From contig ONAY01000010.1 in the NCBI GenBank assembly GCA_900315895.1, forward strand, positions 1-53,879: a DNA stretch of 53,879 nt, read 5' to 3'. Under the pieces are notes generated by a model that was given only the letters and a program-made list of their open reading frames with translations, made no database searches and had not been told where the DNA came from. The stretch is from an uncultured Eubacteriales bacterium. GTDB lineage: Bacteria > Bacillota > Clostridia > Peptostreptococcales > Anaerovoracaceae. The position numbers were made by a program, and so were the translations under genes. Shown in pieces: positions 8,399-26,776 of the stretch (its first letter is position 1; each line of letters opens with the position of its first letter).

Positions 8399-8717
8399 GT
8401 GGGTCAATTTCGGTTGATAAGCAAGATTTGACCCAATTTTCCAACTGGCGAGTGGGTCAATTTCGGGTGATGGGTCGGAATTGACCCACTTTTCCGGATG
8501 GCAGGTGGGTCAGTTTCGGGTGATAAGCAAGATTTGACCCAATGTTCCGACTGGTAGGTGGGTCAATTTCGGATGATAAGCAAGATTTGACCCAATTTTC
8601 CGACTGGTAGGTGGGTCAGTTTCGGGTGATAAGCAAGATTTGACCCAATTTTCCGACTGGTAGGTGGGTCAATTTCGGATGATAAGCAAGATTTGACCCA
8701 ATTTTCCGACTGGTAGG
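8399..8717. repeat. Hairpin array A, left part: six 53-bp tandem units
   Basis: Six units start at 8399, 8452, 8505, 8558, 8611 and 8664, each exactly 53 bp. Each has an arm GTGGGTCAA and, about 28 bases on, its complement TTGACCCA, so every arm can pair with the neighbour on either side. Units 3-6 are nearly identical; unit 2 differs in the loop but extends the stem to GTGGGTCAATT / AATTGACCCAC. The spacing of 53 is not a multiple of three, which argues against coding. The array is interrupted at 8717 by an IS and resumes at 10074. Confidence 0.95.
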
Positions 8718-8815
8718 TGAAGTGGTAAGCTAAAAGTAGACACCGTCCAAAAACATGTAAACATGACGTATAATATCATAAACAGCATGTTCGCATTCTA
8801 CACAGGAGGTGCTCA

Positions 8816-9169
8816 ATGCAGTATACTTACGACAAACGTCTTGCCATTGGCAAAGAAATAGTTACCGGCAAGATAACCACTTCTGAGGCAGCCGATAAAT
8901 ACAGCATTGGTTTGTCGACAGCTAAACTTTATGCCAAACAGTATCGTGACAGGAATAACATTCCTTCTCCTGCCAACTCTCACAAGCCCACCACTTTTAA
9001 ATCCGCAGACTTCGACATTGAAGCTTACCAGGAAATGTCGAAGGAGGAATTGATCAATGAACTGATAAAAGCGAAAGTCAATGAGGCCCGGGCAAAAAAA
9101 GGGTACGAAGTGAAAGGAGTTGGTGCCGACAAGGAGTTCGTTTCTTTAAGCAGCAAGAATTCGAAATAG
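8816..9169 (+). CDS. IS3-family transposase OrfA (helix-turn-helix subunit)
   Basis: A 117-residue DNA-binding subunit. The N-terminal half is a helix-turn-helix of the IS3 OrfA type (KEIVTGKITTSEAADKYSIG, about 9-28), followed by a Lys/Glu-rich helical region that probably mediates dimerisation. AGGAGG lies before the ATG. Near its end (9094-9100) a run of seven A reads A AAA AAA in frame 0. That is a canonical -1 slippery site, and the orfB frame is open from there, so some ribosomes should make an OrfAB fusion, the active transposase in this family. Confidence 0.92.
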   Translation: MQYTYDKRLAIGKEIVTGKITTSEAADKYSIGLSTAKLYAKQYRDRNNIPSPANSHKPTTFKSADFDIEAYQEMSKEELINELIKAKVNEARAKKGYEVKGVGADKEFVSLSSKNSK

Positions 9170-10020
9170 TGATGGAACTCTCCTCGCAGTTCCCTGTCAA
9201 AAGACTTTGTGATGTTATGGGTGTCAACAGGAGCGGCTTCTACAAATGGAAGAAGCGTCTTGAACATCCGTCGGACCGTATTAAGTCATTCATCAGTAAT
9301 ATTATGCTGTTCAAGGAATATCACGCAAAGTATCCTTCTCATGGATACCGCTGGTTAAATGCGAAGATGCGTCTTGATACAGGACTGATAGTATCTGATC
9401 AGTATGCACATAAATGCTGCAAAACAGCGGGTATCAAAAGCAAATCCAAACATTACAGATACAAGAAGCCCGGAGACCCATTCAAGGTATACCCGAATCT
9501 TCTTATGACAGGCTTGAATGTGGATGGACCGCTTCAGTGTGTTGCAAGTGACATGACAGCATTCTATCTTAATGGCATCTACTATGAGCTTACCCTTTAC
9601 ATGGATCTCTGGAACAATGAGATCCTGAGTTACTCGTTGTCAGCCAAGCGAGGCGATCGTATGACATACATCGCTGGTTTGAATGACCTTATCGAACTCA
9701 AGAAGAAGAATCCCGATCTCGAGATGATTCTTCACACAGACCAGGGTTCTGTATATGCTTCCAAAGCATTCAATGAACTCCTGCCGCTCTACAATATCGT
9801 CCATTCAATGTCCAGAGCAGGCACGCCGACAGACAACGCTGCAATGGAAGCGATAAACGGATGGATAAAGGCAGAACTGTTCACAGACCTGCATCTCACA
9901 AGCAATGAAAATATCAAGGGTGAAGTCGAACGGTATATCAGGTTCTACAATGAAGAACGGCCTGCCTACTCTTTAAACTATCTGACTCCCAAACAATACA
10001 GGGAGTATTTCACGACTTAA
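9169..10020 (+). CDS. IS3-family transposase OrfB (DDE integrase domain)
   Basis: The catalytic part of the transposase. An HTH_21-like segment (DVMGVNRSGFYKWKKR) is followed by the rve integrase core with all three catalytic acids visible: Asp in VASDMTAFY, Asp in LHTDQGS, and Glu in the NAAMEAINGWIKAE segment. The reading frame is open upstream to the A7 slippery run at 9094-9100, so the natural product is probably the OrfAB fusion made by -1 frameshifting rather than a protein starting at the GTG here. No internal stop or frameshift is seen, so the element may still be mobile. Confidence 0.93.
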   Translation: MMELSSQFPVKRLCDVMGVNRSGFYKWKKRLEHPSDRIKSFISNIMLFKEYHAKYPSHGYRWLNAKMRLDTGLIVSDQYAHKCCKTAGIKSKSKHYRYKKPGDPFKVYPNLLMTGLNVDGPLQCVASDMTAFYLNGIYYELTLYMDLWNNEILSYSLSAKRGDRMTYIAGLNDLIELKKKNPDLEMILHTDQGSVYASKAFNELLPLYNIVHSMSRAGTPTDNAAMEAINGWIKAELFTDLHLTSNENIKGEVERYIRFYNEERPAYSLNYLTPKQYREYFTT

Positions 10021-10073
10021 TTACTGAGTAAAATATTTTTAAAAGTGTCTACTTTTTGTTGACTAGTGCATAG

Positions 10074-10168
10074 GTGGGTCAGTTTCGGGTGATAAGCAAG
10101 ATTTGATCCAATGTTCTGGAAGGGAGGTGGGTCAATTCCAAGGAATGGCTTGAAATTGACCCACCTCC
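10074..10168. repeat. Hairpin array A, right part: two units after the IS
   Basis: Unit 7 (10074-10126, again 53 bp) and unit 8 (from 10127) continue array A. Unit 8 is diverged in the loop but keeps a longer stem, GTGGGTCAATT with AAATTGACCCAC. Confidence 0.9.
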
Positions 10169-10259
10169 CATCAAACCATTAGCCATTCGCCCATGATCTT
10201 AACACTGTTCTATGTGAATTTTTTGATTTTTATTTGTCCCTCGACATAATCCACAAAAT

Positions 10260-10289
10260 TTGTTCACATTCTCAACATAAACATATAAT
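10260..10289 (+). promoter_or_regulatory. Orphan promoter upstream of a candidate small RNA
   Basis: TTGTTC (10260-10265), an 18-base spacer and a perfect TATAAT (10284-10289) on the plus strand, in a gene-free region. The expected start is near 10296. Confidence 0.5.
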
Positions 10290-10295
10290 AGTATA

Positions 10296-10397
10296 ACTTT
10301 AGACGATAACAAAAGTAATGCTAAAACTTTTCTTCATAACGCATAGTGCCCCTAAGGACCGGAACGGCGGCCGGTCCTCGGGGGCGTTCGTTTTTTT
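10296..10397 (+). ncRNA. Candidate small RNA of about 100 nt
   Basis: Between the orphan promoter and a strong terminator there is room for a transcript of about 100 nt with no usable reading frame. The 3' part is a long GC-rich hairpin, GCCCCTAAGGACCGG (10348-10362) with CCGGTCCTCGGGGGC (10371-10385), followed by T-rich sequence with seven T in a row. The 5' part has a small AAAAGT / ACTTTT hairpin. It sits between array A and array C. I do not recognise a known RNA family. Confidence 0.4.
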
Positions 10398-10408
10398 GGA
10401 AAGGGGCG

Positions 10409-10648
10409 CAGGCTACATCTGGTCGAAACGCCTACTTGTGGCCTGAAGCCTGGGCCTGCGAGCAGGCTACATCTGATTGGAACGCCTGCTTGTAGCCTGA
10501 AGTGCGCGCCTGCGAGCAGGCTACATCTGGCGCAATCCCCTGCTTGTAGCCTGAAGTGGGTGCCTGCGAGCAGGCTACATTCGGTCGAATCCCCTGCTTG
10601 TAGCCTGAAGTGCGTGGCTGCGAGCAGGCTACATTCGGTCGAATCAGT
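10409..10648. repeat. Hairpin array C: four and a half 54-bp units
   Basis: Units start at 10409, 10463, 10517, 10571 and 10625, exactly 54 bp apart. Arm CAGGCTACA pairs with TGTAGCCTG about 28 bases later. The inter-hairpin spacer ends CTGCGAG in every copy. A protein-like frame runs through the array on the minus strand only because 54 is a multiple of three. Confidence 0.93.
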
Positions 10649-10650
10649 GT

Positions 10651-10840
10651 TTGCGTCCGAGTCGTAGCATCCTTCTCTCAGACGCAACCCTTAGAAATCC
10701 CTGATTGCGTCTGAGTCATGGCATCTTTTCCTCAGACGCAATGCCCCGAAATCCCTGGTTGCGTCTGAGTCATGGCATCTTTTCCTCAGACGCAATACCC
10801 CGAAATCCCTGGTTGCGTCTGAGTCCTAGCCTCGTTTCCC
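10651..10840. repeat. Hairpin array D: three and a half 54-bp units
   Basis: Units start at 10651, 10705, 10759 and 10813, exactly 54 bp apart. Arm TTGCGTCTGAG pairs with CTCAGACGCAA over a 16-base loop. The spacer CCCCGAAATCCCTGG is nearly constant. Array D begins 26 bases after the last arm of array C, which is half a period, so the two arrays are joined in register. Confidence 0.93.
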
Positions 10841-10876
10841 CAGCACACACCCCGGCACCCCCGCCCCCCACACAAC

Positions 10877-10904
10877 AAAAAGGCACTTCCCGCAGGGAAG
10901 TGCC
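10877..10904 (-). terminator. Terminator of tyrS
   Basis: On the minus strand GGCACTTCCC pairs with GGGAAGTGCC over a 3-base loop and is followed by five T, 19 bases after the stop codon. Confidence 0.9.
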
Positions 10905-10922
10905 TTCGCATCTTCTAATGTT

Positions 10923-12266
10923 CTATGCAAGTTTTACTCGCATGAATTTTTTCTTGCCCTTTTGGATCAGGAGGACGCCTTCTTCGTCGAACATGTCACG
11001 GGTCACCTTCATCTTGGGGTCTGTGACTTTTTCGCCTGCGACGGTGACGCCGCCCTGCTCAACTGTGCGGAAGCCGTCTGAAGTGTTTTGCACCAGTTTG
11101 AGGGTCTTGAGAAGGTTGATCAGGCCCATGCCTTCGCCTTCGAACTCGGCAGCAGGCACTTCGGTCAGCGGTACGTTGGACCAGTCGGTTCCCTGGCCGA
11201 AGGCGGCTCTTGCGCCTTCAAGGGCTTTTCGGGCTTCTTCCTCGCCGTGTACCAGCTTGGTGACTTCGAAGGCCAGGATCTCCTTGGCCTTATTCAGCTC
11301 GGCGCCCTCCAGTGCGGACAGTCTTTCAACCTCTTCCATGGGAAGGAAGGTCAGCATCCTCAGGCACTTGTTGACGTCTGCATCGGGCACGTTTCTCCAG
11401 TACTGGAAGAACTCGAAGGGGGAAGTCTTGTCGGCTCTGAGCCACAGCGCGCCCTTTTCGGTCTTGCCCATCTTCTTGCCTTCGGAGTTGGTCAGAAGGG
11501 AGAAGGTCATGCCATATACGTCCTTGCCGGTCATTTTCCTGGTCAGGTCTACGCCGCCGATGATGTTTGACCACTGGTCGTTGCCGCCGAACTGGACTTT
11601 CACGCCCAGATCCCTGGCCATGACCATGAAGTCATAGCTCTGCATCAGCATGTAGTTCAGTTCGAACAGGGTCAGTCCGCCCTCTCTCTCCATCCTCTGC
11701 TTGAAGCATTCGGCACGGAGCATGTTGTTCACGTTGAACTGGGAGCCGATCTCCCTGATGAACTCGATGTAGTTGAGGGGTCTGAGCCAGCGGGCGTTGT
11801 TGACGGAGACCGCTTTTCCGGGCAAGGGTTCTCTGTTCTGGTGTCCGGGAACGAACACGCCTTCGTTGCCCTCGTACTTCCACTCGTCGTCGAAGTCGAT
11901 GAACTGGTCGAAAAGTTTCTTGAACTCCTCGCAGTTATGCTCGATGGTTTCGATGTCCATGACCTTTCTCATGGATGTTTTGCCGGAGGGGTCTCCCACC
12001 ATGCCGGTGCCGCCGCCGATGAGCACTACCGGGGTGTGGCCGAACTTCTGCATGTACATCATGATGATGACCTGCATGAAGTGTCCCACGTGAAGGCAGT
12101 CCGCTGTCGGGTCGAAGCCGATGTAGAACTTGACCTTTTCGTTCTTTAAGAGCTCGCGGACCTTTTCCTCGTCGGTGGATTGCTCGATAAAGCCTCTTTC
12201 TTTAAGTACGTCGTATACGTTGTCGAATTTGCTGACGTTGTCAGGTATCAGCTTGGTTGCGTCCAT
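10923..12266 (-). CDS. tyrS: Tyrosyl-tRNA synthetase
   Basis: A 447-residue class I aminoacyl-tRNA synthetase that charges tRNA-Tyr. The HIGH-type motif appears as CLHVGH (about 59-64), the tyrosine-binding region as YDFMVMARDLGVKVQFGGNDQW, and the KMSKS-type loop as KMGKT (about 249-253). The C-terminal 80 residues form an S4-like RNA-binding domain (NLLKTLKLVQNTSDGFR, then GGVTVAGEKV). Its length and layout fit the bacterial TyrS. No T-box leader is possible in the 110 bases separating it from upp, so it may be read from the upstream cluster. It has its own strong terminator. Confidence 0.97.
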   Translation of the reverse strand: MDATKLIPDNVSKFDNVYDVLKERGFIEQSTDEEKVRELLKNEKVKFYIGFDPTADCLHVGHFMQVIIMMYMQKFGHTPVVLIGGGTGMVGDPSGKTSMRKVMDIETIEHNCEEFKKLFDQFIDFDDEWKYEGNEGVFVPGHQNREPLPGKAVSVNNARWLRPLNYIEFIREIGSQFNVNNMLRAECFKQRMEREGGLTLFELNYMLMQSYDFMVMARDLGVKVQFGGNDQWSNIIGGVDLTRKMTGKDVYGMTFSLLTNSEGKKMGKTEKGALWLRADKTSPFEFFQYWRNVPDADVNKCLRMLTFLPMEEVERLSALEGAELNKAKEILAFEVTKLVHGEEEARKALEGARAAFGQGTDWSNVPLTEVPAAEFEGEGMGLINLLKTLKLVQNTSDGFRTVEQGGVTVAGEKVTDPKMKVTRDMFDEEGVLLIQKGKKKFMRVKLA

Positions 12267-12377
12267 TTTTGTGATTTCCTTTACGATTTAGTATGTTTTT
12301 TTCGCGCCGCTAGCCGCTAGGCGTTAGCCGCGCCGCTAGGCGTTAGCAGCACCGCCCTAGGGTCCGGCAGAACTCGG

Positions 12378-13007
12378 CTATTTCGTTCCGAACAGCCTGT
12401 CGCCCGCGTCGCCTAAGCCGGGTACGATGTATGCGTCTTCATTTAAGCGCTCGTCTTCCTGGGCGATGTAGATGTCAACGTCCGGGTGAGCTTCCTGGAG
12501 AGCCTCGATTCCCTCGGGAGCAGCGATGAGGCACATGAAGATGATGTTCTTTCCGCCTCTCTGCTTGATGGAATTGATGGCGTCCACTGCGGATCCGCCG
12601 GTAGCCAGCATGGGGTCTACCACAAAGATCCATCTCTTGTCTATGTCATTGGGGAGCTTGCAATAGTATTCAACGGGAAGGTGTGTGGCAGGATCCCTGT
12701 AAAGTCCCACGTGGCCAACCTTTGCGTTGGGATAAAGGGCCAGCATGCCGTCCACGAATCCCAGTCCGGCTCTCAGGATGGGTACGATGGCGATGTCTTC
12801 GCCGGCCAGCATCTTCTGGGTTGTCTTGCAGATGGGAGTCTCGATCTCCACGTCTGTCAGGGGAAGATATCTTGTAGCCTCATATCCCATAAGGGTCACC
12901 ACTTCCCTGGCCAGTTCCCTGAACTCCTTGTTGTTGGTGTCCTTTTTTCTCATTAAAGTGACTTTGTGCTGAATAAGCGGATGATCGAATACTAATACTT
13001 TGCCCAT
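12378..13007 (-). CDS. upp: Uracil phosphoribosyltransferase
   Basis: A 209-residue enzyme making UMP from uracil and PRPP in pyrimidine salvage. The start at 13007 ([15 protein letters not shown]) is set by AAAGGAG 7 bases upstream and by the family's usual N-terminus; the frame upstream of it is not conserved. Seen motifs are [13 protein letters not shown] (about 78-90) and the PRPP-binding loop [12 protein letters not shown] (about 125-136). The C-terminal [11 protein letters not shown] is typical. It follows the rpiB domain as in many Bacillota, but a strong hairpin separates them. Confidence 0.97.
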
Positions 13008-13035
13008 GATAATCTCCTTTTCATTAAATATGTGA

Positions 13036-13065
13036 GCGCAAAACATCCGCCCCGGATGTTTTGCG
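13036..13065. terminator. Strong bidirectional hairpin between rpiB and upp
   Basis: GCAAAACATCCG pairs with CGGATGTTTTGC over a short loop, with further T on both sides. It lies between the rpiB stop and the upp start and probably ends the prfA-tsaC-rpiB transcript. Confidence 0.7.
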
Positions 13066-13088
13066 GTTTTTAACACTAAACTCCGGTC

Positions 13089-14573
13089 CTACATTTCGTC
13101 CAGAAGATCGGTCCTCCTCTTGTGGCGGCCGCCGCCGAACTCTGTTGTGAGCCACTCCTCCACCATGGCGAAGGCTTCCTCCGGCTGGGTGGTCCTGCCG
13201 CCCAGAGCCAGGACGTTGGCGTTGTTATGCTCTTTTGCCAGGTGAGCCATCTCCACCGATGTGACCAGGGCGCAGCGCACTCCCTTGACCTTGTTGGCCG
13301 CAATGGAGATGCCGATGCCGGTGCCGCAGCAGACGATGCCAAGATCCGCATCACCCTTCACAACGGTCTCGCCGCAAAGCTTCCCGTACACCGGGTAGTC
13401 CACGGACTCCTCGCTGTAGGTGCCCAGGTCTTTCACCTCAAGCTCGGGGTGTTTCTCGCCCAGGTACTCTCTGATCTTCTCTTTAAGCTGGAATCCGCCG
13501 TGGTCGCTGGCGATGGCAATTCTCATTTTTTGATCCTCCATGACATCTTCAATATTGTATCCTGCGGACTTGAACATCCGGTTCATCACCGAGAAGCCCA
13601 CCCCTTCTTCACGAAGGGCTGAGGCCAGTATCACGTCCGTGCCGTCCTTGTCGCACTCCCTGAGCCTTGCGAAAAACTCTCTGGCCGCAGTCTCCTGCTC
13701 CGAATCGGAGTAGGTGATTACCGAGACCTTCAGGCCCTGTGCCTCCAGCTTAGCCCGCCTGTCCTCGATCACGCGGAGCACCGCATCGTGGGGGCCTCTG
13801 AATATGGTCATCTCTGCCTTTGGCGCGTAGTGCTTGTATTTCATTCCCGGGGACTTTGGATGGAAGTCCTGGCCCGTCACCGGGTTTCCAGTGGCCTTGT
13901 CGATCTTGGGTTTTTTGAGGAGGCTGGGGTCCAGTGAGACTTCCCTGCCGATGACCTGGCTGATCTTTTCGGCTGTGACGATGCCCGGTCTCAGGATCAC
14001 AGGAGGCCTGTCGTCTCCTCCGGTCATGTCGATGACCGTGGACTCGATGCCTACCTGGCAGTCCGGGCCGCAGATGATGGCGTCCACCCTGCCCATCAGG
14101 TCATCCATGCAGTGTCTGTATGTGGTGGGGCTTGGGTGGCCGCTCAGATTCGCTGAGGGGGCTGCGATGGGAAGGCCGCTCTTCATTATGAGCTGCCTGG
14201 CCGTCTCCTCCGAGGGCATCCTGATAGCCACGGTGTCCAGGCCGCCGGTGGTGACCCTTGGGACTATATCCTTGGCGGGGACCACCATGGTCATGGGTCC
14301 CGGCCAGATGGCGTCCATGAGAAGCTCCATATCCCGGGTCATGAGGTCGGTCAGATCTTTAAGCCCGGACTTCTCCCCGATGTGAACTATCATGGGGTTG
14401 TCCGAGGGGCGTCCCTTGGCAAGGTAAACCCTCTTCACCGCGTCCGGATCCAGGGCATTGGCACCCAGGCCGTACACCGTCTCCGTGGGAAAGGCCACCA
14501 GGCCGCCTCGCCTTATGATCTCCGCTGCCTTCTCTATATCCTTTTCACTTGTGGTAAGTATAAGTGTTTCCAA
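13089..14573 (-). CDS. TsaC/Sua5 threonylcarbamoyl-AMP synthase fused to ribose-5-phosphate isomerase B
   Basis: A 494-residue fusion of two enzymes usually encoded side by side. Residues 1-345 are a Sua5-type protein: the YrdC domain (GGLVAFPTETVYGLGANA, PSANLSGHPSPT) makes threonylcarbamoyl-AMP for the t6A37 modification of tRNA, and a C-terminal Sua5 domain follows HYAPK. Residues 350-494 are RpiB (MRIAIASDHGGF, CCGTGIGISIAANK, LGGRTT), which interconverts ribose 5-phosphate and ribulose 5-phosphate. There is no stop codon between them. A perfect GGAGGA lies 7 bases before the internal ATG at 13526, so free RpiB (13089-13526) is probably also made. Confidence 0.93.
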   Translation of the reverse strand: METLILTTSEKDIEKAAEIIRRGGLVAFPTETVYGLGANALDPDAVKRVYLAKGRPSDNPMIVHIGEKSGLKDLTDLMTRDMELLMDAIWPGPMTMVVPAKDIVPRVTTGGLDTVAIRMPSEETARQLIMKSGLPIAAPSANLSGHPSPTTYRHCMDDLMGRVDAIICGPDCQVGIESTVIDMTGGDDRPPVILRPGIVTAEKISQVIGREVSLDPSLLKKPKIDKATGNPVTGQDFHPKSPGMKYKHYAPKAEMTIFRGPHDAVLRVIEDRRAKLEAQGLKVSVITYSDSEQETAAREFFARLRECDKDGTDVILASALREEGVGFSVMNRMFKSAGYNIEDVMEDQKMRIAIASDHGGFQLKEKIREYLGEKHPELEVKDLGTYSEESVDYPVYGKLCGETVVKGDADLGIVCCGTGIGISIAANKVKGVRCALVTSVEMAHLAKEHNNANVLALGGRTTQPEEAFAMVEEWLTTEFGGGRHKRRTDLLDEM

Positions 14574-14649
14574 ATCGGTATTAAAGTAAGTTTCTGGTTT
14601 AGATCCCGGAGTGCCCTGTGGGCCCCGTGAGCCCGGGCAGTGCCGGAGA

Positions 14650-15711
14650 TCAGAAGTTTTTCATCTTTTCCGCCTGGTCGGAGGTGATCAGGCCGTCTAC
14701 GATCTCGTCGATATCCCCGTCCAGGAAGCTGTCCAGTTTGTAGATGGTCATGTTGATCCTGTGGTCGGTGACTCTTCCCTGGGGGAAGTTATAGGTGCGA
14801 ATCCTTTCGGATCTGTCGCCGGAACCTATCTGGGAGCGGCGCTCTGCGGATACGGATTCCGCCTGCTCTCTCACCATCTTGTCGTAAAGTCTGGACTTGA
14901 GGACTCTCATGGCCTTATCCTTGTTCTTTAACTGGGACTTTTCGTCCTGGCAGGTGACCACCAGTCCTGTGGGCAGGTGGGTGATACGCACTGCGGAGTC
15001 CGTGGTGTTTACGCACTGGCCGCCGTGACCGGAGGCTCTGTAAACGTCCACCTTGATATCCTCGGGGCGGATCTCCACTTCCACGTCGTCCACTTCAGGA
15101 AGGACGGCCACTGTCGCAGCCGATGTGTGGATCCTGCCGGAAGACTCGGTATCGGGCACGCGCTGCACCCTGTGGGTGCCGGATTCGTACTTCATTCTGG
15201 AGTAGGCGCCCTTGCCCTTGATCATGACTTCCACTTCCTTGACGCCGCCAAGCTCTGTCTCGTTGGCGTCGATGACCTCGGCCTTCCAGCCTCTTCTCTC
15301 AGCGTACCTCAAGTACATCCTGAGAAGGTCAGTGCCGAAAAGCGCCGCTTCTTCGCCGCCGGTGCCTGCTCTGATCTCGAGGATGACGTTCTTGTCATCG
15401 TTGGGGTCCTTGGGCAGCATCAGGACTTTGAGCTCGTTTTCCAGGGCCGGGAGTCTCTCCTCCAGATCGGAGATCTCCATCTTGGCCAGTTCCCTGAGCT
15501 CCTCGTCATCCTGCTCCAGCATCTCCTTGGCCTGCTCCATTTCCTCTGTGGCCTTCTGATATTCCTTGTACTTCAAAGCTACCGGCTCCAGTTCTCCCAG
15601 CTCCTTCATGAATTTTTTCCACTGGGGCTGATTGGAGATAATGTCCGGATCCGAGACCTTGAGGGACAGTTCTTCGTATTTTTCTAAAATGAATTTGAGC
15701 TTGTCAAACAT
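14650..15711 (-). CDS. prfA: Peptide chain release factor 1
   Basis: A 353-residue class I release factor that ends translation at UAA and UAG. Seen in order: an N-terminal helical domain to about residue 110, [11 protein letters not shown] (about 115-125), the catalytic GGQ loop in [19 protein letters not shown] (GGQ about 229-231), and the QLKNKDKAM segment. The length is standard. It heads the prfA-(tsaC-rpiB) run. prmC, which methylates the GGQ glutamine and usually lies next to prfA, is here 6.5 kb away, separated by unrelated genes. Confidence 0.98.
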
Positions 15712-18929: not shown

Positions 18930-18948
18930 AAGTCACAGTATATTATCT

Positions 18949-18985: not shown

Positions 18986-18998
18986 AGGATTTAACCAA

Positions 18999-19640
18999 AT
19001 GTTGCAAGACCTACGATCTTTTTTAAACAAAAAACAGGCAGCCCTTCTAATCGCCGCCCTCATATATGACCTTCTGGTGTTCTACGGCTCCCGCCTGATC
19101 AATCATGGCATGGAGCACCATGACTTCACCCTGGCCATAGACCACATGATCCCCCTCCTTCCCTGGATGATCTTCGTCTACATCGGGGCCTTCCTTTTCT
19201 GGGTCATTAACTACTGCATCTGCACCAAGTTCGACAAAGGCCACGGCCTGAGCTTCATCGGCACCCACTTCATAGGTGAGACAGTGTGCCTGGGTTTTTT
19301 CCTCCTGCTTCCCACTGCCATGGTGAGGCCTGACATAACAGGGAACAGTTTCGCCGACTGGGCACTGAGCGTGACCTACCAGAGCGACTCGCCGGACAAT
19401 CTTTTCCCGTCCCTTCACTGCTTCATGAGCTGGCTCTGCTGGATCGGAGTTCGCGGCAACGACCACGTTCCCAAGTGGTACCGGAACCTGTCCCTTGTGA
19501 TCGCCATCGCCATCTGCATAAGCACCCTTACTGTGAAGCAGCACGTCTTCGTGGACGCAGTGGCCGGAGTACTTCTGGCCGAGGTCTGCTACATCCTGTC
19601 CGGGATGCTGGACAGGCGCCTTGATCATAAACTTAACTGA
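18999..19640 (+). CDS. PAP2-like membrane phosphatase
   Basis: A 213-residue protein with about six membrane helices and the second and third PAP2 motifs: PSLHC (His catalytic, about 146-150) and VKQHVFVDAVAG (about 183-194). The first motif (KxxxxxxRP) is not clear, as in the PAP2_3/inositol phosphorylceramide synthase-like branch. It may dephosphorylate a lipid or prenyl phosphate at the outer face of the membrane. The start is the first ATG, only 14 bases after the kbl terminator, and no good ribosome binding site is seen. A terminator follows, then hairpin array E. Confidence 0.8.
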   Translation: MLQDLRSFLNKKQAALLIAALIYDLLVFYGSRLINHGMEHHDFTLAIDHMIPLLPWMIFVYIGAFLFWVINYCICTKFDKGHGLSFIGTHFIGETVCLGFFLLLPTAMVRPDITGNSFADWALSVTYQSDSPDNLFPSLHCFMSWLCWIGVRGNDHVPKWYRNLSLVIAIAICISTLTVKQHVFVDAVAGVLLAEVCYILSGMLDRRLDHKLN

Positions 19641-19652
19641 TGGAACACACAT

Positions 19653-19680
19653 CCCGCCCGCCCCGGGGCGGGATTTTTTT
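19653..19680 (+). terminator. Terminator of the PAP2 gene
   Basis: CCCGCCC pairs with GGGCGGG and is followed by seven T, then GCGCAAAAAA. It also forms the left border of hairpin array E. Confidence 0.88.
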
Positions 19681-19707
19681 GCGCAAAAAACTCTGCCCGG
19701 GGTTTGC

Positions 19708-19964
19708 ACTAGGACGCAAACCCCCGATTTCACTAGTTGCGTCCTAGTTTTTTCCCGTGGTACTAGGACGCAAACCCTCGATTTCGCCAATTGCGTCCTA
19801 GTTTTTTCACAAGGCACTAGGACGCAAACCCTCGATTTCGCCAGTTGCGTCCTAGTTTTTTCCCAGGGCACTAGGACGCAAACCCCTGATTTCACCAGTT
19901 GCGTCCTAGTTTTTTCCCGGGGCACTAGGACGCAATCCCCCGATTTCACCATTTGCGTCCTAGT
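19708..19964. repeat. Hairpin array E: five 54-bp units with U-tracts
   Basis: Units start at 19708, 19762, 19816, 19870 and 19924, exactly 54 bp apart. Arm ACTAGGACGCAA pairs perfectly with TTGCGTCCTAGT over a 17-base loop reading like CCCCGATTTCACCAG. The first four hairpins are followed by TTTTTT on the plus strand, so each resembles an intrinsic terminator. The array is bracketed by two ordinary plus-strand terminators (19653-19680 and 19990-20011). Confidence 0.95.
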
Positions 19965-19989
19965 CCCCCATCATATACGAGCCTGTAAC

Positions 19990-20011
19990 CCCGCGCGGCG
20001 CGGGATTTTTT
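19990..20011 (+). terminator. Plus-strand terminator after hairpin array E
   Basis: CCCGCG pairs with CGCGGG over a 3-base loop and is followed by ATTTTTT and GCGC. No gene precedes it on this strand after the PAP2 terminator. Confidence 0.7.
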
Positions 20012-20015
20012 GCGC

Positions 20016-20040
20016 AAAAAAAGGACCGCACATGCGGTCC
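20016..20040 (-). terminator. Terminator of the three-repeat protein gene
   Basis: On the minus strand GGACCGCA pairs with TGCGGTCC and is followed by seven T and GCGC. Confidence 0.88.
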
Positions 20041-20061
20041 TTTCGCGACTTCTTAAGTCAG

Positions 20062-20730
20062 TTACATTTCTGTGATCTCTTCGTACTCTGTAGCCTTGTT
20101 GAACATGTTGTTGAGAGCCTTGAACTTCTTCTCTACGTAAGCGTCGATCTCCTCGTCGGATACTGTGCCCTTGAGCTTAGCTTTCATGGTGTTGGCTACG
20201 ATAGCCTGATGAAGCTTGGGGTCATTGAGGAAGTTGACTGTGTAGACCTGCTCGAACTGTCTGTCCATGAGGCCTTCCTTGACTTCGTTGTCCACCACGT
20301 TGACATATCTGGACTCAAAATCTACGGCCTTCTTGAGCTCAGCGAATCTCTTCTTTACGTAAGCTGTGATCTTGTCTTCCGGAACCATGCCCTTGAGCTT
20401 AGCCTTCATGGTGTTGAGAACAACAATGTAGTGAAGATCCATGTCTCCCACGAAGTTTACTGTGGCGATCTGCTCGAACTGGCGGGCGAGAACAGCTTCC
20501 TCATCAAGATTTACAGGAGCTGATTCAGCGGCGATGTCAGCTTCTTCTGACTTAACAACTTCTGCAGCTCTTGCCTTGACATACTTCTCGATCTCTTCTA
20601 CCGGTACGATTCCGTCAAGCTTGGCGATCATGGAGTTAAGTGCCACTTTGTAGAACATGTCGTGGTCAGCTATGTTTCCGATCGAAGCCTGATGTTCAAA
20701 TTCTCTGTCAAGAATCAGTTTGTAATCCAT
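20062..20730 (-). CDS. Soluble protein made of three 74-residue-spaced repeats, function unknown
   Basis: A 222-residue protein without signal peptide or membrane segment. Three copies of a 50-residue repeat start at residues 8, 82 and 156, exactly 74 apart. The consensus is roughly RxFExxxxxNFxxDxxLHxxVxxNTMxAKLxGxVPxxxIxxYVKKRF. The pattern is helical and might be a small helical bundle with a ligand or peptide site. Repeats 2 and 3 are closest. Linkers are acidic (residues 60-80). AAGGAGG precedes the ATG, and a good promoter and its own terminator make it a single-gene unit. I do not recognise the family. Confidence 0.8.
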   Translation of the reverse strand: MDYKLILDREFEHQASIGNIADHDMFYKVALNSMIAKLDGIVPVEEIEKYVKARAAEVVKSEEADIAAESAPVNLDEEAVLARQFEQIATVNFVGDMDLHYIVVLNTMKAKLKGMVPEDKITAYVKKRFAELKKAVDFESRYVNVVDNEVKEGLMDRQFEQVYTVNFLNDPKLHQAIVANTMKAKLKGTVSDEEIDAYVEKKFKALNNMFNKATEYEEITEM

Positions 20731-20796
20731 TGCTTTCCTCCTTAAAAGTCTCCATACCGTATAAAAATCGGTGTGTATAATTCCATACCTATTTAG

Positions 20797-20802
20797 ATTA
20801 TA
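20797..20802 (-). promoter_or_regulatory. Extended -10 promoter of the three-repeat protein gene
   Basis: On the minus strand TATAAT is preceded by TGT (extended -10). No clear -35 is seen. Expected start about 60 bases before the ATG. Confidence 0.5.
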
Positions 20803-20844
20803 ACACAGTGTAAAAAATTTTGTATACTTATTTTTGAAACCTCA

Positions 20845-21702
20845 TTATTTCCCGTCAACTTCTATGGTGAATCCTCTGCCGTTTACCTCGGATACGTTGG
20901 TGACGGTGATGAAAGCTGTGGGATCGATCTTAAGAATCTGCTCCTTGACCCTGAAAAGGTCCTTTTTGTCCAGCACTGTCTGAATGATGTAGGTGGGGGT
21001 CTTCTCGTGACCGCCGATGGCGCTGTACATGGTGCTTCCATGGCCGGAGCTGGTCTGGATCATCTCGTTGATCTCCTCGTACTTGGGGCTGGAGATCTGA
21101 AGTTGTATGCGACTCACGCCCCTGGCAAGGAACCTGTCAAGAAGAGCAGTGTAGACGATTATGACCAGAAGTCCCGCCAAGATACCCTCCTTCTGGGAAT
21201 TGGGCACCTGGGCAGCCAGAGCCACCAGTTCCAAGGCGTTGAGCGCCCTGGACACGGAGATTCCTGTCTTCTTGTTGAGGATCACGGCGATGACGTCCAG
21301 TCCGCCGGAGGACGCACCGTTTCCAATTATCAAACTTATGCCGAAGGCGAATAATATGGCGGAAAACACTAGACACAGGGTGAAGTTGTCCGTCAGCGGC
21401 CCTGTCACATCGTAGATCCTCTCCACCGCCCAGAGGACGATGGGATACTCTATGGTGCAGACTATGGTGTTGGCCGCGAACTCACGCCCCATAAAAACTC
21501 TGGCAAGGACCAGGAAAATCACGTTAAGCCCTGCCACAACATAGGATATGGGAAGGCCGAAGGCCAGCCGGAAGGCGTTTCCCACGCCGGTCAGTCCTCC
21601 CACGATGAATCCGGGAGGAAGCAGGAAATACTGGATGCATATGGCCAGGATCACGTTTCCCAGCAGTATCATGATTTGTCTTTTAATGGATTTTGCGTTC
21701 AT
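20845..21702 (-). CDS. YitT family membrane protein (DUF161 and DUF2179)
   Basis: A 285-residue protein with five or six membrane helices in residues 1-190 (FLLPPGFIVGGLTGVGNA is typical of the YitT/DUF161 domain) and a soluble C-terminal DUF2179 domain (QLQISSPKYEEINEMIQ ... TYIIQTVLDKKDLFRVKEQILKIDPTAFITVTNVSEVNGRGF). The DUF2179 domain may sense a nucleotide or metal; the family's role is not established. The start at 21702 is preferred because upstream in-frame codons lie inside the rpmE terminator. It reads leftward, after rpmE. Confidence 0.85.
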   Translation of the reverse strand: MNAKSIKRQIMILLGNVILAICIQYFLLPPGFIVGGLTGVGNAFRLAFGLPISYVVAGLNVIFLVLARVFMGREFAANTIVCTIEYPIVLWAVERIYDVTGPLTDNFTLCLVFSAILFAFGISLIIGNGASSGGLDVIAVILNKKTGISVSRALNALELVALAAQVPNSQKEGILAGLLVIIVYTALLDRFLARGVSRIQLQISSPKYEEINEMIQTSSGHGSTMYSAIGGHEKTPTYIIQTVLDKKDLFRVKEQILKIDPTAFITVTNVSEVNGRGFTIEVDGK

Positions 21703-21709
21703 AACAGAT

Positions 21710-21734
21710 GAAAACGCCCCGGCGCAGCCGGGGC
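21710..21734 (-). terminator. Terminator of rpmE
   Basis: On the minus strand GCCCCGGC pairs with GCCGGGGC over a short loop and is followed by GTTTTC. It overlaps the region just before the YitT start. Confidence 0.7.
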
Positions 21735-21743
21735 TCATGTGTC

Positions 21744-21941
21744 CTACAGATTGTACTTGTTCTTAAACTTCTCAACACGGCCGCCACGGTTGACCATCTT
21801 GGCTGCGCCTGTGAAGAACGGATGGCATGCTGAGCATACGTCAAGCTTCATCTCAGGCTTTGTTGATCTCGTCATAAACGTGTTACCGCATGCGCAAGTT
21901 ACTTTACAGTCCACATAATTGGGATGGATTCCTTCCTTCAT
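21744..21941 (-). CDS. rpmE: 50S ribosomal protein L31
   Basis: A 65-residue L31. It is the zinc-binding (C+) form, with cysteines in TCACG and VCSACH. In many bacteria this form is replaced by a zinc-free paralogue under zinc limitation. The N-terminus MKEGIHPNY and the C-terminal [11 protein letters not shown] are canonical. In Bacillota rpmE commonly lies by rho, as here (with prmC and the yqhQ-like gene between). Confidence 0.97.
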
Positions 21942-22137
21942 GTCAGTTCCTTTCCCGGCAGCAAGTTACTACCGTATTCTTGAGATGTCTGCGCCTGATC
22001 ATGTCCGCGGAGCCATGCTTTATGGGCCTTGGGTCCCGCGCTGGTGGCCATGCCGGTCACAGCTTTTCAACTATATCACAGGAAGAGGGGGAATGCAAGA
22101 GTTTTGTAGGGAATTTTGTAAACCTATCTGATTGCAC

Positions 22138-22166
22138 AAAAAAGACGGATCTGTGAGCCCGTCTTT
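22138..22166 (-). terminator. Terminator of prmC
   Basis: On the minus strand AAGACGG pairs with CCGTCTT over a 10-base loop and runs into TTTTTT. Confidence 0.75.
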
Positions 22167-22224
22167 ATCATCTGCAGGGCTTGCTGCCCTCTGTCTTTAT
22201 GGGTTATGCCGCCTCTTGGTCCGC

Positions 22225-23076
22225 CTATCTGCGATGCACGATCACCATTCTGTCCAGGCCGTTGAGGTCCTTCATTACCCTGGTCTCTCCCAGATCCTTC
22301 ATTAGCTCAGGTACCGTCTCTCCCTGGTCGTAGCCGATCTCCATCATGAGTCGGCCGCCACAGTTAAGATGCTTTGGTGCTTCCTCTGCCAGTATCCTGT
22401 AAAAGTCCAGCCCGTCGGTCCCTCCTGAAAGGGCGATCATGGGTTCATGTTCTCTCACCTCTGAAGTCAGGGTCTCGATCTCCCGGTCCGTGATGTAGGG
22501 GGGATTGCAGAGTATCATGTGGAAGTTCCTGCCCTCAAGCGCCTTGAACATGTCGGACTTTAGTATTTCCACCTTCAATCCGTTTAGCTCTGCATTTATC
22601 TCAGCTGTCTGAAGCGCTCCGTCGCTTATGTCTGACAGGGTCACCTGGGCCTTGGGAAAATGCCTCTTCACGGATAATCCGATGGCTCCTGAACCGGTGC
22701 AGATGTCCAGAACTTCCGGTGCAGGTGCATCGGCTGCATCGTATTCCTCTCTCAGGGCTCTCAGCGCTTCCTCCACCAGAAGCTCGGTCTCAGGCCTTGG
22801 TATCAGCACTTCAGGGCCAACTTTAAGATCCAGGTCCATGAAGCCCTGGTGGCCAGTGATGTGCTGAAGGGGGATGCCGGAAGCGCGCTGTTGGATGAGA
22901 GATAGGTAGCGGGCTTGAATGTTTTGCGCCACGTCCTCACGCTGGGCCATGATGAGCCCGGTGTTGTCCAGGCCTGTCAGGAACATGTAGAGTGCCCGGG
23001 CGTCGTATCTTGGGCTGTCCTTTCCGGCCCGGGTCAGGAGGTCTTCGCCTTTTGTCAAAAGCTCTTTCAGGGTCAT
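22225..23076 (-). CDS. prmC: Release factor glutamine methyltransferase
   Basis: A 283-residue N5-glutamine methyltransferase that modifies the GGQ glutamine of release factors RF1 and RF2. The SAM-binding motif is DICTGSGAIGL (124-134) and the catalytic NPPY lies at 191-194. The N-terminal helical domain (1-90) contains the PLQHITGHQGFM segment that contacts the release factor. The start overlaps the end of the yqhQ-like gene by 4 bases, so they are co-translated. prfA, its substrate gene and usual neighbour, is displaced by 6.5 kb. Confidence 0.96.
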   Translation of the reverse strand: MTLKELLTKGEDLLTRAGKDSPRYDARALYMFLTGLDNTGLIMAQREDVAQNIQARYLSLIQQRASGIPLQHITGHQGFMDLDLKVGPEVLIPRPETELLVEEALRALREEYDAADAPAPEVLDICTGSGAIGLSVKRHFPKAQVTLSDISDGALQTAEINAELNGLKVEILKSDMFKALEGRNFHMILCNPPYITDREIETLTSEVREHEPMIALSGGTDGLDFYRILAEEAPKHLNCGGRLMMEIGYDQGETVPELMKDLGETRVMKDLNGLDRMVIVHRR

Positions 23077-24134
23077 ATCTCGGCTCCGTCTGCGTTGTAG
23101 TAGGTGACCTCTCCGTCAATGGGCTCGCCGTTTAGATTGCAGAAGCCCTCGAAGAACACGCCCTTGGGAAGGATCACGGAGACTCCCTGGGCTTTGGCAT
23201 CCTCGTCGGGAAGCACCGCCTTCACTGCGGCGATGGCCACCTCCAGTTGGCTGAAATCGGGCTCTCTGGTGGTCAGCTTCTGAAGGTAGATGCCGGGAAG
23301 GCTGAGGAACTCCACTATGCGGTTCTGGGATCTTCCCGCCCACTTGAGGAGCTCGTAGGAGATGCCCGCGATGAGCGGCAGGGCCAGAAGTCTCATGCCG
23401 ATCCTCATCCACACGTTGGGCCAGCCCATGAACACATGGACAATGATGGCCACGATCATGACGAACATGAGGAACGATGTCCCGCACCTGGGGTGCAGCC
23501 TGTAGAAGGTCTGAGCGTTCTCAGGGGTCAGGGGCAGGTTGTTCTCGTAGCAGTGGATGGTCTTGTGCTCCGCTCCGTGGTACTTGAATACGGTGTTGAT
23601 GTCTTCGAGCTTGGGGATCAGGGCGATGTATCCGATGAAGAGGGCGATCCTCACTGCGCCCTCCACGATGTTTAAAAGGATCACGGAATCGGTGACCTTC
23701 TTGAGTATCCCCACTATGGCTGTGGGGAGCAGCATGAAGACTCCTATGGCAAGCACCATGGCGAGAACCACTGAGATGGCCATGGTGGCGTTCCAGGCCT
23801 TCTCCTTGCCAAGTTTTTTCTCGAGCCACACCTCGGTCTTGTCCGGCTCGTACTCCTCCGGCACGTACTTTTCAAGGACGTCTGCGGAGTACATTATGGT
23901 CTTGGTGCCGGTTACCAGGGATACGATGAAGGAGACCACGCCCCTTACGAGTGGCACCTTGGACCACTTTCCCAGGGAAAGTGTGGGCTGGGTCTTCATG
24001 TGGATGCGGCCGTCGGGGAGGCGCACAGCTATGGCGGTCTTCTCCGGTCCACGCATCATGATCCCTTCCATTATGGCCTGTCCCCCTATGGAGGTGGGGC
24101 AGGCGTCTTTCAAAAAGATCTTGTTAAAATCCAT
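23073..24134 (-). CDS. DUF1385 membrane protein (YqhQ-like)
   Basis: A 353-residue protein. The N-terminal SIGGQAIMEGIMMRGP is the DUF1385 signature. Several membrane helices follow (about 95-240), and conserved YHGAEHKTIHCYE and HPRCGTSFL segments hold His and Cys residues that could bind a metal. The start at 24134 overlaps the rho stop by one base (TAATG). The rho-DUF1385-prmC order is common in clostridia. The function of the family is not established. Confidence 0.88.
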   Translation of the reverse strand: MDFNKIFLKDACPTSIGGQAIMEGIMMRGPEKTAIAVRLPDGRIHMKTQPTLSLGKWSKVPLVRGVVSFIVSLVTGTKTIMYSADVLEKYVPEEYEPDKTEVWLEKKLGKEKAWNATMAISVVLAMVLAIGVFMLLPTAIVGILKKVTDSVILLNIVEGAVRIALFIGYIALIPKLEDINTVFKYHGAEHKTIHCYENNLPLTPENAQTFYRLHPRCGTSFLMFVMIVAIIVHVFMGWPNVWMRIGMRLLALPLIAGISYELLKWAGRSQNRIVEFLSLPGIYLQKLTTREPDFSQLEVAIAAVKAVLPDEDAKAQGVSVILPKGVFFEGFCNLNGEPIDGEVTYYNADGAEI

Positions 24135-25528
24135 TAATCTACGAATACCTTTCTGATTATCTTGATGAAGTCTTTGTTGCTTCTGGTGTGCTGAAGTGTG
24201 TCTATGATCTCCTCGGTGACCTGAGCCTCGGGCTTGCTGGACAGGGCCTTGCGCATGGCCCATACTGCCTCCAGCTCCTCCTGGCTCATGAGAAGGTCCT
24301 CACGGCGGGTGCCTGAGCGGTTCAGGCTGATGGCCGGGAATATCCTGAGTTCAGAAAGTTTTCTATCCAGGTGAAGCTCCATGTTGCCTGTGCCCTTGAA
24401 CTCCTCGTAGATCACGTCATCCATACGGGATCCTGTCTCGATCAAGGCAGTGGCAAGGATGGTGATGGAGCCTCCCTCTTCCATGTTTCTGGCGGAGCCG
24501 AAAAACTTCTTAGGCTTGTACAGGGCCCCGGGATCGATTCCTCCTGAAAGGGTCCTTCCTGAGTTGGGCACCACCAGGTTGTAGGCCCTCGCGAGACGGG
24601 TTATGGAGTCGAGGAGCACCACTACGTCCTTTTTTTGCTCCACCAGGCGGCGGGCACGCTCCAGTACCATCTCCGCCACCTTCACGTGGTGCTCGGGCAT
24701 CTCGTCAAAGGTGGAGTAGATGACCTCCCCGGACCTCAGGCTCCTCTTCATGTCGGTGACCTCCTCGGGGCGCTCGTCCACCAGAAGCACTATGAGCTCA
24801 GACTCCGGGTAGTTCTCTTCGATGGCGTGGGCGATCTTCTTGAGGAGCACGGTCTTGCCGGCCTTGGGCGGCGCAACGATCAGGCCTCTCTGGCCCTTGC
24901 CGATGGGAGCGATCAGGTCGATGAGCCTGGTGCTGAGCTCACGGCCTTCGGTCTCCAGCTTAAGCCTCTCCTTGGGGAACACCGGCGTCAGCTCGTCGAA
25001 CCTGGGCCTTCTAATGGCGGCTCCCGGCTCCTCGCCGTTTACGGTGTTCACGTAGAGCAGGGCACCGAAGCGCTCCCCTTCGTGGGGAAGCCTGGTGATA
25101 CAGTTTATCTTGTCGCCCGTCTTCAGGTTGAAGCGCCTGATCTGCACGGGGGACACGTATATGTCTTTATCCGATGTAAGGAAATTGTCGAATCTCAAAA
25201 ACCCGAAGCTGTTCTCTTCCTGAATGTCCAGGATGCCTTCCACCACGGGGCGTTCCTGCTGGGGCTGAGGCTTGGGGTCCGGCTCTGCTTTAGCGGCTTC
25301 CTCTGCTTTGGGGTCTGCCTCTTCATTGGGGTCTGGCTCTGCTTTGGGGTCTGCCTCTTCATTTACCACAGTTTCCGGCACTTCAATCTCAGGCTGGGGT
25401 TCCGGCTGGGGTGCTGTTTCTGCGGGGGTTGGATCTTTTGCGGTCTTGGGGTCGGCTTCTATGATAATTGCTTTGCTGTCTTCTTTGGCTTTTTCGATAA
25501 GTTCTGCAGTCTTCTTGGTTCTTGGCAT
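24134..25528 (-). CDS. rho: Transcription termination factor Rho
   Basis: A 464-residue hexameric RNA helicase. The RNA-binding domain includes GFLRF (109-113); the P-loop is [12 protein letters not shown] (215-226); Walker B ([15 protein letters not shown]) and the Q/R loops follow. The start at 25528 has AAAGGAG just upstream. Between residues 26 and 94 there is a low-complexity insert of Asp, Glu, Pro, Lys and Ala with near-repeats ([12 protein letters not shown]), replacing most of the usual N-terminal domain. Such inserts occur in some Rho proteins and can alter RNA binding or drive condensation; the role here is not known. Confidence 0.97.
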
Positions 25529-25645
25529 GGAATGCTCCTTTGGGATTAAACACAAAAAAGAAAAATTAGAATCGTACGGCGATATTGTACACTTAAAAAC
25601 CCGCCAGTTCAAGGGTTTTCGGGGCCCGGCGGGCGGGATGTTTTG

Positions 25646-26443
25646 CTAGAGCAGCAGGCGCTCGACGGTGTGACGGACCACCCTCATGTCCAGGGGGAGG
25701 TTTTTTGTCTCAAAAGTTACGATCAGGTTGACCCCGAGATACCAGCCGTTCATCTCAAGTTCCATGAGCCGCCTGAGCGCCCTGGTGGCGTAGGTCGGGT
25801 CGTCCATCATCCCCAGATGCTCGTGGATGAAGACCTTGCGCTCCGCGATTAAGAGGAGCTTGAAGTCGGGGTGGATCACCCGGCCGTTCTTGAGCTTGAG
25901 GGGGCACTCATACTTCATGGGGATCCCGTAACTGTCATACATATCCGCCAAAAGCGCCTCCGACTTGGACCTCACCCTGAGCCCCTTTGCGGAATAAAAC
26001 TCGGGCGTTCCCTCCTTGAACCCCTTCGGCTCATAGGGCTCCGCCAGCCACTTCTCGGCATATTCCTCATCCGTAAGGATCCTCGGTGTCACAAGCTGCC
26101 GCCTGGCCGGGGTCAGACCGGGGAGGACATCCTCGACAGTCCCCTGATCCCACGTGAGCCTGAGCTCCTTAAGGGCATCCAGTTCCCGCTGAGCGGCCTG
26201 CCTGAGCATCAAGTCGTAGTCCCGCTGGGCGATGGCTGCCGCCTGCGGCATGGCGGACTTGTTGACGTAGGTGGATTTTTTATCATGGGGATTTTGTCTA
26301 ATATAATATTTGGGAATCCCATGATGAGACGTTATCCTCAGCTTTCCGTTAGGCGCATCCACCAGTGATAGGTCAATTTTTTTGATCATTTTTTCCAGAT
26401 AAGACTCTCTTTCCTTAAGCTCCTGCTTTTCTTTCTCCATCAT
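25646..26443 (-). CDS. PD-(D/E)XK nuclease-like protein, function unknown
   Basis: A 265-residue protein. The N-terminal half is a charged helical region (1-130). The C-terminal half looks like a PD-(D/E)XK nuclease fold: RSKSEALLADMYDSYGIP (Glu162), a strand with HPDF (Asp193), then FIHEHLGMMDDP (Glu208 with His209 where Lys is usual). I have seen relatives in clostridia as uncharacterised proteins; I infer nuclease activity only from the motif order. The start at 26443 is set by GGAG seven bases upstream. Its probable promoter lies beyond hairpin array B, so the array would be in its 5' leader. Confidence 0.7.
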   Translation of the reverse strand: MMEKEKQELKERESYLEKMIKKIDLSLVDAPNGKLRITSHHGIPKYYIRQNPHDKKSTYVNKSAMPQAAAIAQRDYDLMLRQAAQRELDALKELRLTWDQGTVEDVLPGLTPARRQLVTPRILTDEEYAEKWLAEPYEPKGFKEGTPEFYSAKGLRVRSKSEALLADMYDSYGIPMKYECPLKLKNGRVIHPDFKLLLIAERKVFIHEHLGMMDDPTYATRALRRLMELEMNGWYLGVNLIVTFETKNLPLDMRVVRHTVERLLL

Positions 26444-26474
26444 TGTGGTCTCCTTCACTTAAATGTAGCTAGAA

Positions 26475-26776
26475 TGGGTCTATTGGGATGTGATGATGAT
26501 AATTGACCCAATTACTTCTGTGTGGTTTGGGTCAATTTCTTGGTCCGGGGCATTTTAGACCCATTTTTCTCTCCGAACTTTGGGTCAATTTCTTGGTCCG
26601 GGGCATTTTAGACCCATTTTTCTCTCCACAATTTGGGTCAACTTCGCCACCCGGGGCATTTTAGACCCATTCACTTCCTCCTAAGTTGGGTCAGAATCTG
26701 ATATTCTGCAAAATGTGACCCAGATACATGCAAAAAAATTGGGTCGATTCTGCGCAAATCTCAGATATTGACCCAA
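26475..26776. repeat. Hairpin array B: six 53-bp units
   Basis: The arm TGGGTC occurs at 26475, 26528, 26581, 26634, 26687 and 26740, exactly 53 bp apart each time. Each is followed about 30 bases later by GACCC. The stem is that of array A, 16 kb away (TGGGTCA). Units 2-4 are alike (TTCTTGGTCCGGGGCATTTT). Units 5 and 6 have quite different loops and spacers but keep the same arm and exact length. Confidence 0.93.

Follow-up and report, generated by a model that had tools for sequence, protein, structure and literature searches.

The window analysed here, a stretch of 53,879 nucleotides spanning contig ONAY01000010.1 of an uncultured Eubacteriales bacterium of the family Anaerovoracaceae, carries five arrays (A to E) of short arms that alternate with their own reverse complements at a period of 53 or 54 bp. 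The arms and the distances between them are kept while the spacer sequence is free to vary, the arrays share a geometry, no called pair of flanking genes is divergent, and in congeners arrays hold several of the same intergenic loci with changed stems. The reading that we favour, tentatively, is that the arrays may be double-stranded DNA platforms for a putative lineage-tuned, sequence-specific protein, and would constitute a chromosome-organising or topology element that works like the bacterial interspersed mosaic elements (BIMEs); the binding protein, the wrapping of DNA, and the architectural role are what we infer from that pattern.

Array A begins at 8399-8717 as six units of 53 bp (core TGGGTC, gaps of 24 and 17 bases) and has its remainder at 10074-10168, beyond an insertion sequence (IS). 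Arrays C (10409-10648; core CAGGCT), D (10651-10840; core TCAGAC, TTGCGTCTGAG arms), and E (19708-19964; core TAGGAC, CTAGGACGCAA arms, flanked by convergent genes) all have gaps of 25 and 17 and a period of 54 bp, and array B (26475-26776) has 12 arms with the TGGGTC core, gaps of 24 and 17, and a period of 53 bp. These positions and periods had been proposed in a first-pass annotation, and were confirmed both by Tandem Repeats Finder and by a stem-blind detector that looks for 6-mers alternating with their own reverse complement (at least five arms; periods of 30-84 allowed). The former returned A at 8398-8719 (53 bp, 6.1 copies), C at 10408-10643 (54 bp), D at 10651-10843 (54 bp), E at 19706-19964 (54 bp), and B at 26526-26671 (53 bp); the latter recovered all five and stretched B to 26475-26775, with 12 arms.

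The source genome, of which the window is contig C23, comprises 1.736 Mb and is 87% complete; it contains ten more array loci besides the window arrays. In a sample of 371 kb of its 1.736 Mb, chosen partly for its hits, the detector reported 18 arrays, every one with a period of 51-54, and 0 in shuffled sequence; 150 kb of the sample without known arrays yielded 0 arrays in a wider-range run. Note that the detector overlooks diverged arrays, and that the wider-range run lost the Bifidobacterium canis array discussed below and two arrays of the source genome that the first run had found. Across the whole source genome the pattern TGGGTCA-N12-28-TGACCCA had 40 occurrences and its reversed control 0, and GACGCAA-N12-22-TTGCGTC had 18, again with 0 in the control. 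Solitary TGGGTCA outside arrays was neither enriched nor avoided (48 occurrences, against a mean of 41 and a standard deviation of 24 for 60 permuted 7-mers), and a reading as a restriction site or uptake sequence was dropped on that count.

The stems had been described as different from array to array, and their sequences do differ, but they are not unrelated: after a change of register to the half-site, a common geometry emerges for A/B, D, and E, and with less certainty for C, and most of the difference seems to be variation on a single half-site, YRGGNY (TGGGTC, TAGGAC, CAGGCT). Once every arm is given a 6-base core, namely TGGGTC for A/B, CAGGCT for C, and TAGGAC for E, with its variant TCAGAC for D, the window arrays all read core-N24/25-anticore-N17-core. 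The kinship of the D and E stems in a shifted register, suggested earlier, is thus supported and extends to A/B and perhaps C. The same layout was found in other organisms, namely a congener (G019), another genus of the family (G337), a Lachnospiraceae metagenome-assembled genome (MAG) from horse faeces (MAG007), and B. canis; together with the source genome, modal gaps of 23-25 and 16-18 fit 28 of the 31 arrays examined, the core having been picked by eye. The gaps are 24-25/17-18 in the TGGGCC arrays of G019 at the E, B, and C30 loci, 23-24/17 in the TGGGCC arrays of G337, and 23-24/15-17 in the TGGGTC-type arrays of MAG007 and B. canis, whereas in a further genome, G379, one of the two outer gaps agrees. 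When gaps of 10-40 were allowed between TGGGTCA and TGACCCA, exactly 22 bases separated eight of nine pairs in MAG007 (21 in the ninth) and four of four in B. canis; the reversed control gave one pair in MAG007 and none in B. canis.

What is conserved within the arrays is distance rather than spacer sequence. For TGGGTCA arms of the source genome (at most one mismatch), the inner distance was 29 in 49 of 58 cases and the outer distance 24 in 47 of 50, and among 123 same-strand distances of 40-66, 83 were 53, nine were 54, and five were 52; the period, earlier called exact, is therefore so for most units but not for all. In array B the inner gap was 24 in 6/6 and the outer gap 17 in 5/5, and length is indeed held through units 5 and 6, as had been noted. 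Spacer identity between different TGGGTCA arrays of the source genome was only 36% and 35% of positions, and distances that are kept while the spacers diverge to this extent support the earlier suggestion of selection for phasing.

Pairing beyond the arms is, for the most part, not conserved. Bases past the arms paired near the level of permuted partners, except at two inner positions (1-2; p about 0.035), and in the GACGCAA units the outer four bases of both arms agreed in 10 of 18 and differed in eight. When five single window units were folded, only that of E was exceptional (-17.2 kcal/mol, z -4.4), its stem being followed by a T-run; D was moderate (z -2.4), and A (-1.9), C (-0.95), and B (+0.35) were not remarkable. 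Because the arms are conserved but pairing beyond them mostly is not, the pattern is better described as a repetition of half-sites in double-stranded DNA than as a set of hairpin stems, and the term hairpin used in the first-pass annotation is not the most apt. A separate observation concerns a 51-bp family common to two different loci, L056 (6910-7110) in the source genome and L067 (108-225) in G019: judged by eye, it has the same outer stem (TACTG/CAGTA) and the same loop (TTTCAAAAAATC) in the two genomes, but an inner stem that is altered on both sides, GCTTA/TAAGC vs. TACAG/CTGTA, as would suit a hairpin.

Positions in the genome are partly retained even though stems are not. Contig C12 of G019 matches the window at 83-88% identity in the four longest stretches and at 69-94% over all of its matching stretches, and G019 carries arrays at four of the nine source-genome loci tested (tyrS, E, B, and C30), with the stems GTGGTCCAC, GTGGGCCGCA, TTGGGCCACA, and TTGGGCCRCA; all four were also found by the same kind of detector. 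Matches flank the locus on either side in six cases (tyrS, split between two contigs, and E, B, C30, C31, and C9), and in four of these G019 has an array. Stretches of G019 taken blind to arrays contained two arrays in 240 kb, and the agreement in loci is thus far above background. The comparison omitted C38, C50, and the TACTGC array at C10. In a third genome, G102, arrays with TAGTACTA-like arms were seen by eye at two of nine loci (E and C14-A), and the detector found 0 arrays in 251 kb. The G102 counterparts of the tyrS, C30, C10, C33, and C9 loci had no array; at B and C31 there was none beside the conserved gene, in rearranged context.

How such arrays might work can be put as follows. 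Each would be a row of copies of one asymmetric half-site, an arm of 7-13 bp that contains the 6-bp core YRGGNY, in orientations that alternate, and because one unit is about five helical turns, successive units would lie on the same face of the DNA. A putative DNA-binding protein would occupy the arms and coat or wrap the DNA, its sequence preference drifting between lineages, and the resulting platform, beyond the 3' ends of mostly housekeeping genes, would help to organise the chromosome or to handle its topology, in the manner of BIME-2 and gyrase. DNA wrapped by gyrase is described as having a phased AT/GC pattern, and BIME-2 elements as strong gyrase sites in Escherichia coli (PMC6379681). 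The AT content of the arrays resembles that pattern: the strongest of 12 harmonics was at one-fifth of the period (10.2-10.8 bp) in 13 of the 18 source-genome arrays, at 10.6 bp in 11 of them and at 10.8 and 10.2 bp in one each. With the arms masked, phasing remained at p<0.025 in five of ten A-family arrays.

Several results weigh against the platform reading. The other five masked A-family arrays gave p values of 0.05-0.34, and the fifth harmonic was on top in only 16 of 30 arrays overall; it led in none of five GACGCAA arrays, one of six G019 arrays, and none of three MAG arrays. Because it is absent from the GACGCAA arrays, five of six in G019, and the MAG arrays, the AT phasing is supportive only. 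No binding protein was identified for the arrays, and one G019 array adjoins an IS200 remnant. The geometry has exceptions, namely the tyrS array of G019 (21-22/20-21) and an array of a further congener, G426 (24/37); moreover, a core picked by eye can be slid, a shift by d altering the inner gap by -2d and the outer gap by +2d, the alignment of family C to the core is weak, and the TACTGC, AGGATA, and G102 arrays have no such core and were left out of the 31-array set. Five of the nine source-genome loci (C5, C14-A, C14-G, C31, and C9) lack an array in G019, although for C5 and C14-A the verdict comes from a single flank and the context of C14-G is rearranged; conversely, one G019 array (L068) has none in its source-genome counterpart. 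A hairpin function is left some room by three findings: inner positions 1-2 pair slightly, E has a perfect stem of 12 bp, and the stem changed on both sides between L056 and L067.

The 53-bp rule is also not universal. The first-pass annotation held that a widely varying period would speak against a common class. This objection applies in part: all sampled periods of the source genome fell within 51-54, but relatives are less regular: G426 has a 73-bp array with TAGGTC arms (L197, 5506-5687), and a genome of another genus, G032, has an 86-bp array of CGTGGTGC/GCACCACG (L112, 1652-2047) just upstream of ruvC. In the G426 array the inner gap is the same (24), and the outer gap, at 37 rather than 17, is longer by about two helical turns. 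A wider proposal, which we regard as doubtful, is that of an undescribed chromosomal platform class in two phyla, built on a fixed ruler of core-N24-anticore-N17 (about five helical turns) in which the recognised sequence is swapped between species while several positions are kept; this would imply a fast-evolving array-binding protein that organises the chromosome, comparable to the turnover of satellites and centromere proteins.

An unlikely but serious alternative is that the arrays are non-autonomous mobile palindromes, akin to BIMEs or to the paired repetitive extragenic palindromes (REPs) known as REPINs, whose arms are recognised in pairs by a transposase that moves or copies units, tandem arrays being a by-product. 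Dispersed extragenic families, lineage-specific stems, alternating orientation, and positions downstream of genes are all in keeping with such elements; the G019 counterpart of the C31 array is array-free, and a 54-bp TGGGCC array of G019 (L103, contig C2, about 1950-2393) begins some 160 bases past a truncated IS200/IS605-type transposase open reading frame (ORF; 1489-1788). A survey of REPs lists stems with TGGGTC/GACCCA, in Haemophilus parasuis (PMC2817692), and MAG007 encodes a protein like the REP-associated tyrosine transposases (RAYTs), at 61 bits and below the RAYT cut-off of 80. Other results on transposases point the other way: the intact Y1 transposase of the source genome is of the IS200/IS605 type (139.8 bits, against 24 for the RAYT model) and has no array in its 1.9-kb locus, the RAYT-like protein of MAG007 has no GGGTCA within its 3.3-kb locus, and B. 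canis gave no Y1 match. Nor are the arms tagged as those of REPs are, for GTAG lay within 10 nt of only five of 112 A arms (4.5% expected at random), 0 of 37 G arms, and 0 of 18 C arms, and CGTC of none; with spacer identity of about 36% between arrays, nothing suggests, either, that whole units were recently copied from one locus to another.

It is rather improbable that the arrays act at the RNA level, as transcribed rows of hairpins that terminate transcription arriving from either direction or shield 3' ends. In favour, the arms can pair, the E unit folds well and has a T-run after its stem, the C31 array sits, by eye, between a stop codon and a terminator-like T-run, and the L056/L067 family holds its loop while its inner stem is changed on both sides. 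However, folding is unexceptional for A, B, and C and only moderate for D, compensation is absent in eight of the 18 GACGCAA outer stems, and the tyrS and E loci already have a strong terminator-like stem-loop between the end of the upstream gene and the array (that at B is only weak). Rfam matched two tRNAs only in the window and gave seven matches in a set of nine loci, none of them over an array. A non-adaptive satellite, in which slippage duplication and template-switch correction keep arms palindromic and the period constant without any function, appears equally hard to credit. It could accommodate the near homogeneity of some arrays, the five of nine loci that are empty in G019, and the differences in copy number and composition between arrays beside two tuf copies (L057 vs. 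L058, the second a presumed tuf with the same 3' sequence), but neutral spacers at 36% identity should hold indels, yet 49/58 and 47/50 distances are kept; furthermore, the TGGGTC geometry recurs in Bifidobacterium and loci recur between species.

Among known systems, the arrays come closest to BIMEs, and the earlier statement that they fit neither REPs nor BIMEs holds only in part. BIMEs are extragenic repeats that lie downstream of genes at regular spacing and with orientations that alternate (PMC2817692), and that layout is found here. Our arrays differ in that their arms are not tagged REPs, half-site gaps are about 16-18 and 23-25 bp, no RAYT above the cut-off was found, and stems turn over within a genus. 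With REPs and REPINs they have in common 20-40-bp extragenic palindromic units in lineage-specific families, and one REP stem listed in that survey contains TGGGTC (PMC2817692). REPs have, in many families, loops of 2-3 bases and an unpaired GTAG or CGTC end (PMC3733652), whereas the arm gaps here are about 17-25 bases and there is no excess of GTAG, and no CGTC, at the arms; where GTAG and CGTC strings do occur, inside the C and D/E arms, they would be paired. By eye, stems are longer and loops shorter in the B. canis units. A search of five genomes gave no Y1 gene flanked by the repeats and no RAYT above the cut-off, the Y1 genes of G102 being left unclassified; the source genome has one intact Y1 gene and one broken, and at 87% completeness a gene could be missing. 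The detector found an array at one of seven Y1 loci, that of L103, where truncated transposase ORF and array come after a tRNA cluster. Overall, mobilisation of the arrays by a RAYT is conceivable but not supported.

The regular repeat-spacer layout recalls clustered regularly interspaced short palindromic repeats (CRISPR), but the earlier dismissal of that assignment is borne out by the repeat layout, as arm orientations alternate and spacers are repeated within arrays; no cas search was made. Plasmid iterons and centromere-type arrays are phased binding sites for one protein. The present arrays differ from these in being chromosomal, at many loci, and of alternating orientation, with no linked partner gene identified. 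They are a variant of the extragenic-palindrome-array kind and may be a separate class; no recognised description of such arrays in these groups was found in the open-licence PMC literature, and a description elsewhere is possible.

A three-arm TGGGYCR pattern, looked for in 393 genomes of the order, was present in five (reversed control, one): the source genome, G019, G337, and G379, where it is array-like, and G357, with a single match. A three-arm TGGGTCA scan of a one-genome-per-species collection gave seven stretches in five organisms, of which those in MAG007 (three contigs) and B. canis are arrays; on inspection by eye, the stretches in Phormidium, Thermoanaerobaculia, and Coriobacteriales looked unclear or due to chance, their genomes having 2-3 pairs against one in the control where counted. 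Single TGGGTCA pairs in G116 and G098 were set aside as being at the level of the control, in which four genomes likewise have one. In 291 kb from 20 other genera, the first detector run found 0 arrays and the wider-range run only the 86-bp array. A phage origin was also rejected: the three-arm TGGGTCA scan of IMG/VR returned one TGGGTCA cluster, dense by eye but without the 53-bp layout, and a four-arm TGGGYC scan returned 0.

Fourteen array loci were considered in the source genome, with A, C, and D combined manually into a single locus and with C33, a single pair, included; L058 is cut by a contig end. Both flanks were called in 13, of which nine are co-directional, four convergent, and none divergent, the calls at C5 and C30 being weak. 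As claimed earlier, arrays lie between genes when these are selected by coding score, although mechanical ORFs do cross them and, at C10, the longest-ORF start call enters the array end by 58 bp. Arrays face the 3' ends of, among others, tyrS, tuf, polC, murC, a parB/noc-family gene, and the genes for 3-hydroxybutyryl-CoA dehydrogenase, enoyl-CoA hydratase, and arginine deiminase. A mixed array row at L011 (1057-2425) lies directly 3' of a parB/noc-family gene, and the two tuf-side loci, L057 (8977-9700) and L058 (9672-10000), hold related yet differing rows of C, A, and GACGCAA arrays. A six-copy 51-bp direct repeat without obvious inverted arms on contig C14 (L049, 1111-1416) was set aside.

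Downstream of tyrS (10923-12266, minus strand), a terminator-like stem-loop of 13 pairs (10879-10907, minus strand) lies between that gene and D/C/A; the region has three terminator-like sites vs. 2.7 in shuffles. One of nine pairs (19651-19674, plus strand) follows the PAP2-family gene (18999-19640) just before E, and a second lies after E at 19990-20004, with four sites in the region vs. 0.7 in shuffles. Two TTTTTTGCGCAAAA strings flank E at the terminator T-runs (19674-19690 and 20006-20022), and the strict TTTTTTGCGCAAAA pattern occurs nowhere else in the 23 loci scanned. Before B, a weak stem-loop of five pairs (26895-26907, minus strand) lies downstream of the 3-hydroxybutyryl-CoA dehydrogenase gene (26989-27846, minus strand), and the single site of that region is at the background level (0.9 in shuffles). 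The element that splits array A, leaving the tail at 10074-10168, is of the IS3 family, and its ORFs occupy 8816-10020 on the plus strand: orfB (9169-10020) matched NF033516 with 194 bits, and orfA (8816-9169) had no NCBIfam match. REPs are known targets of IS3-family elements (PMC1525189).

The two tuf-side loci of the source genome amount to a natural experiment in the gain and loss of arrays. If the platform reading is true, bacteria replace the sequence that is bound, yet the arrays themselves stay at some of the same intergenic positions. Retention of position with exchange of sequence is a pattern better known from eukaryotic satellites. In arm sequence, spacing, and position, the arrays offer testable sites for a search, within this family and Bifidobacterium, for a factor that binds DNA or acts on its topology, and such a search would stand apart from the RAYT-linked palindromes.

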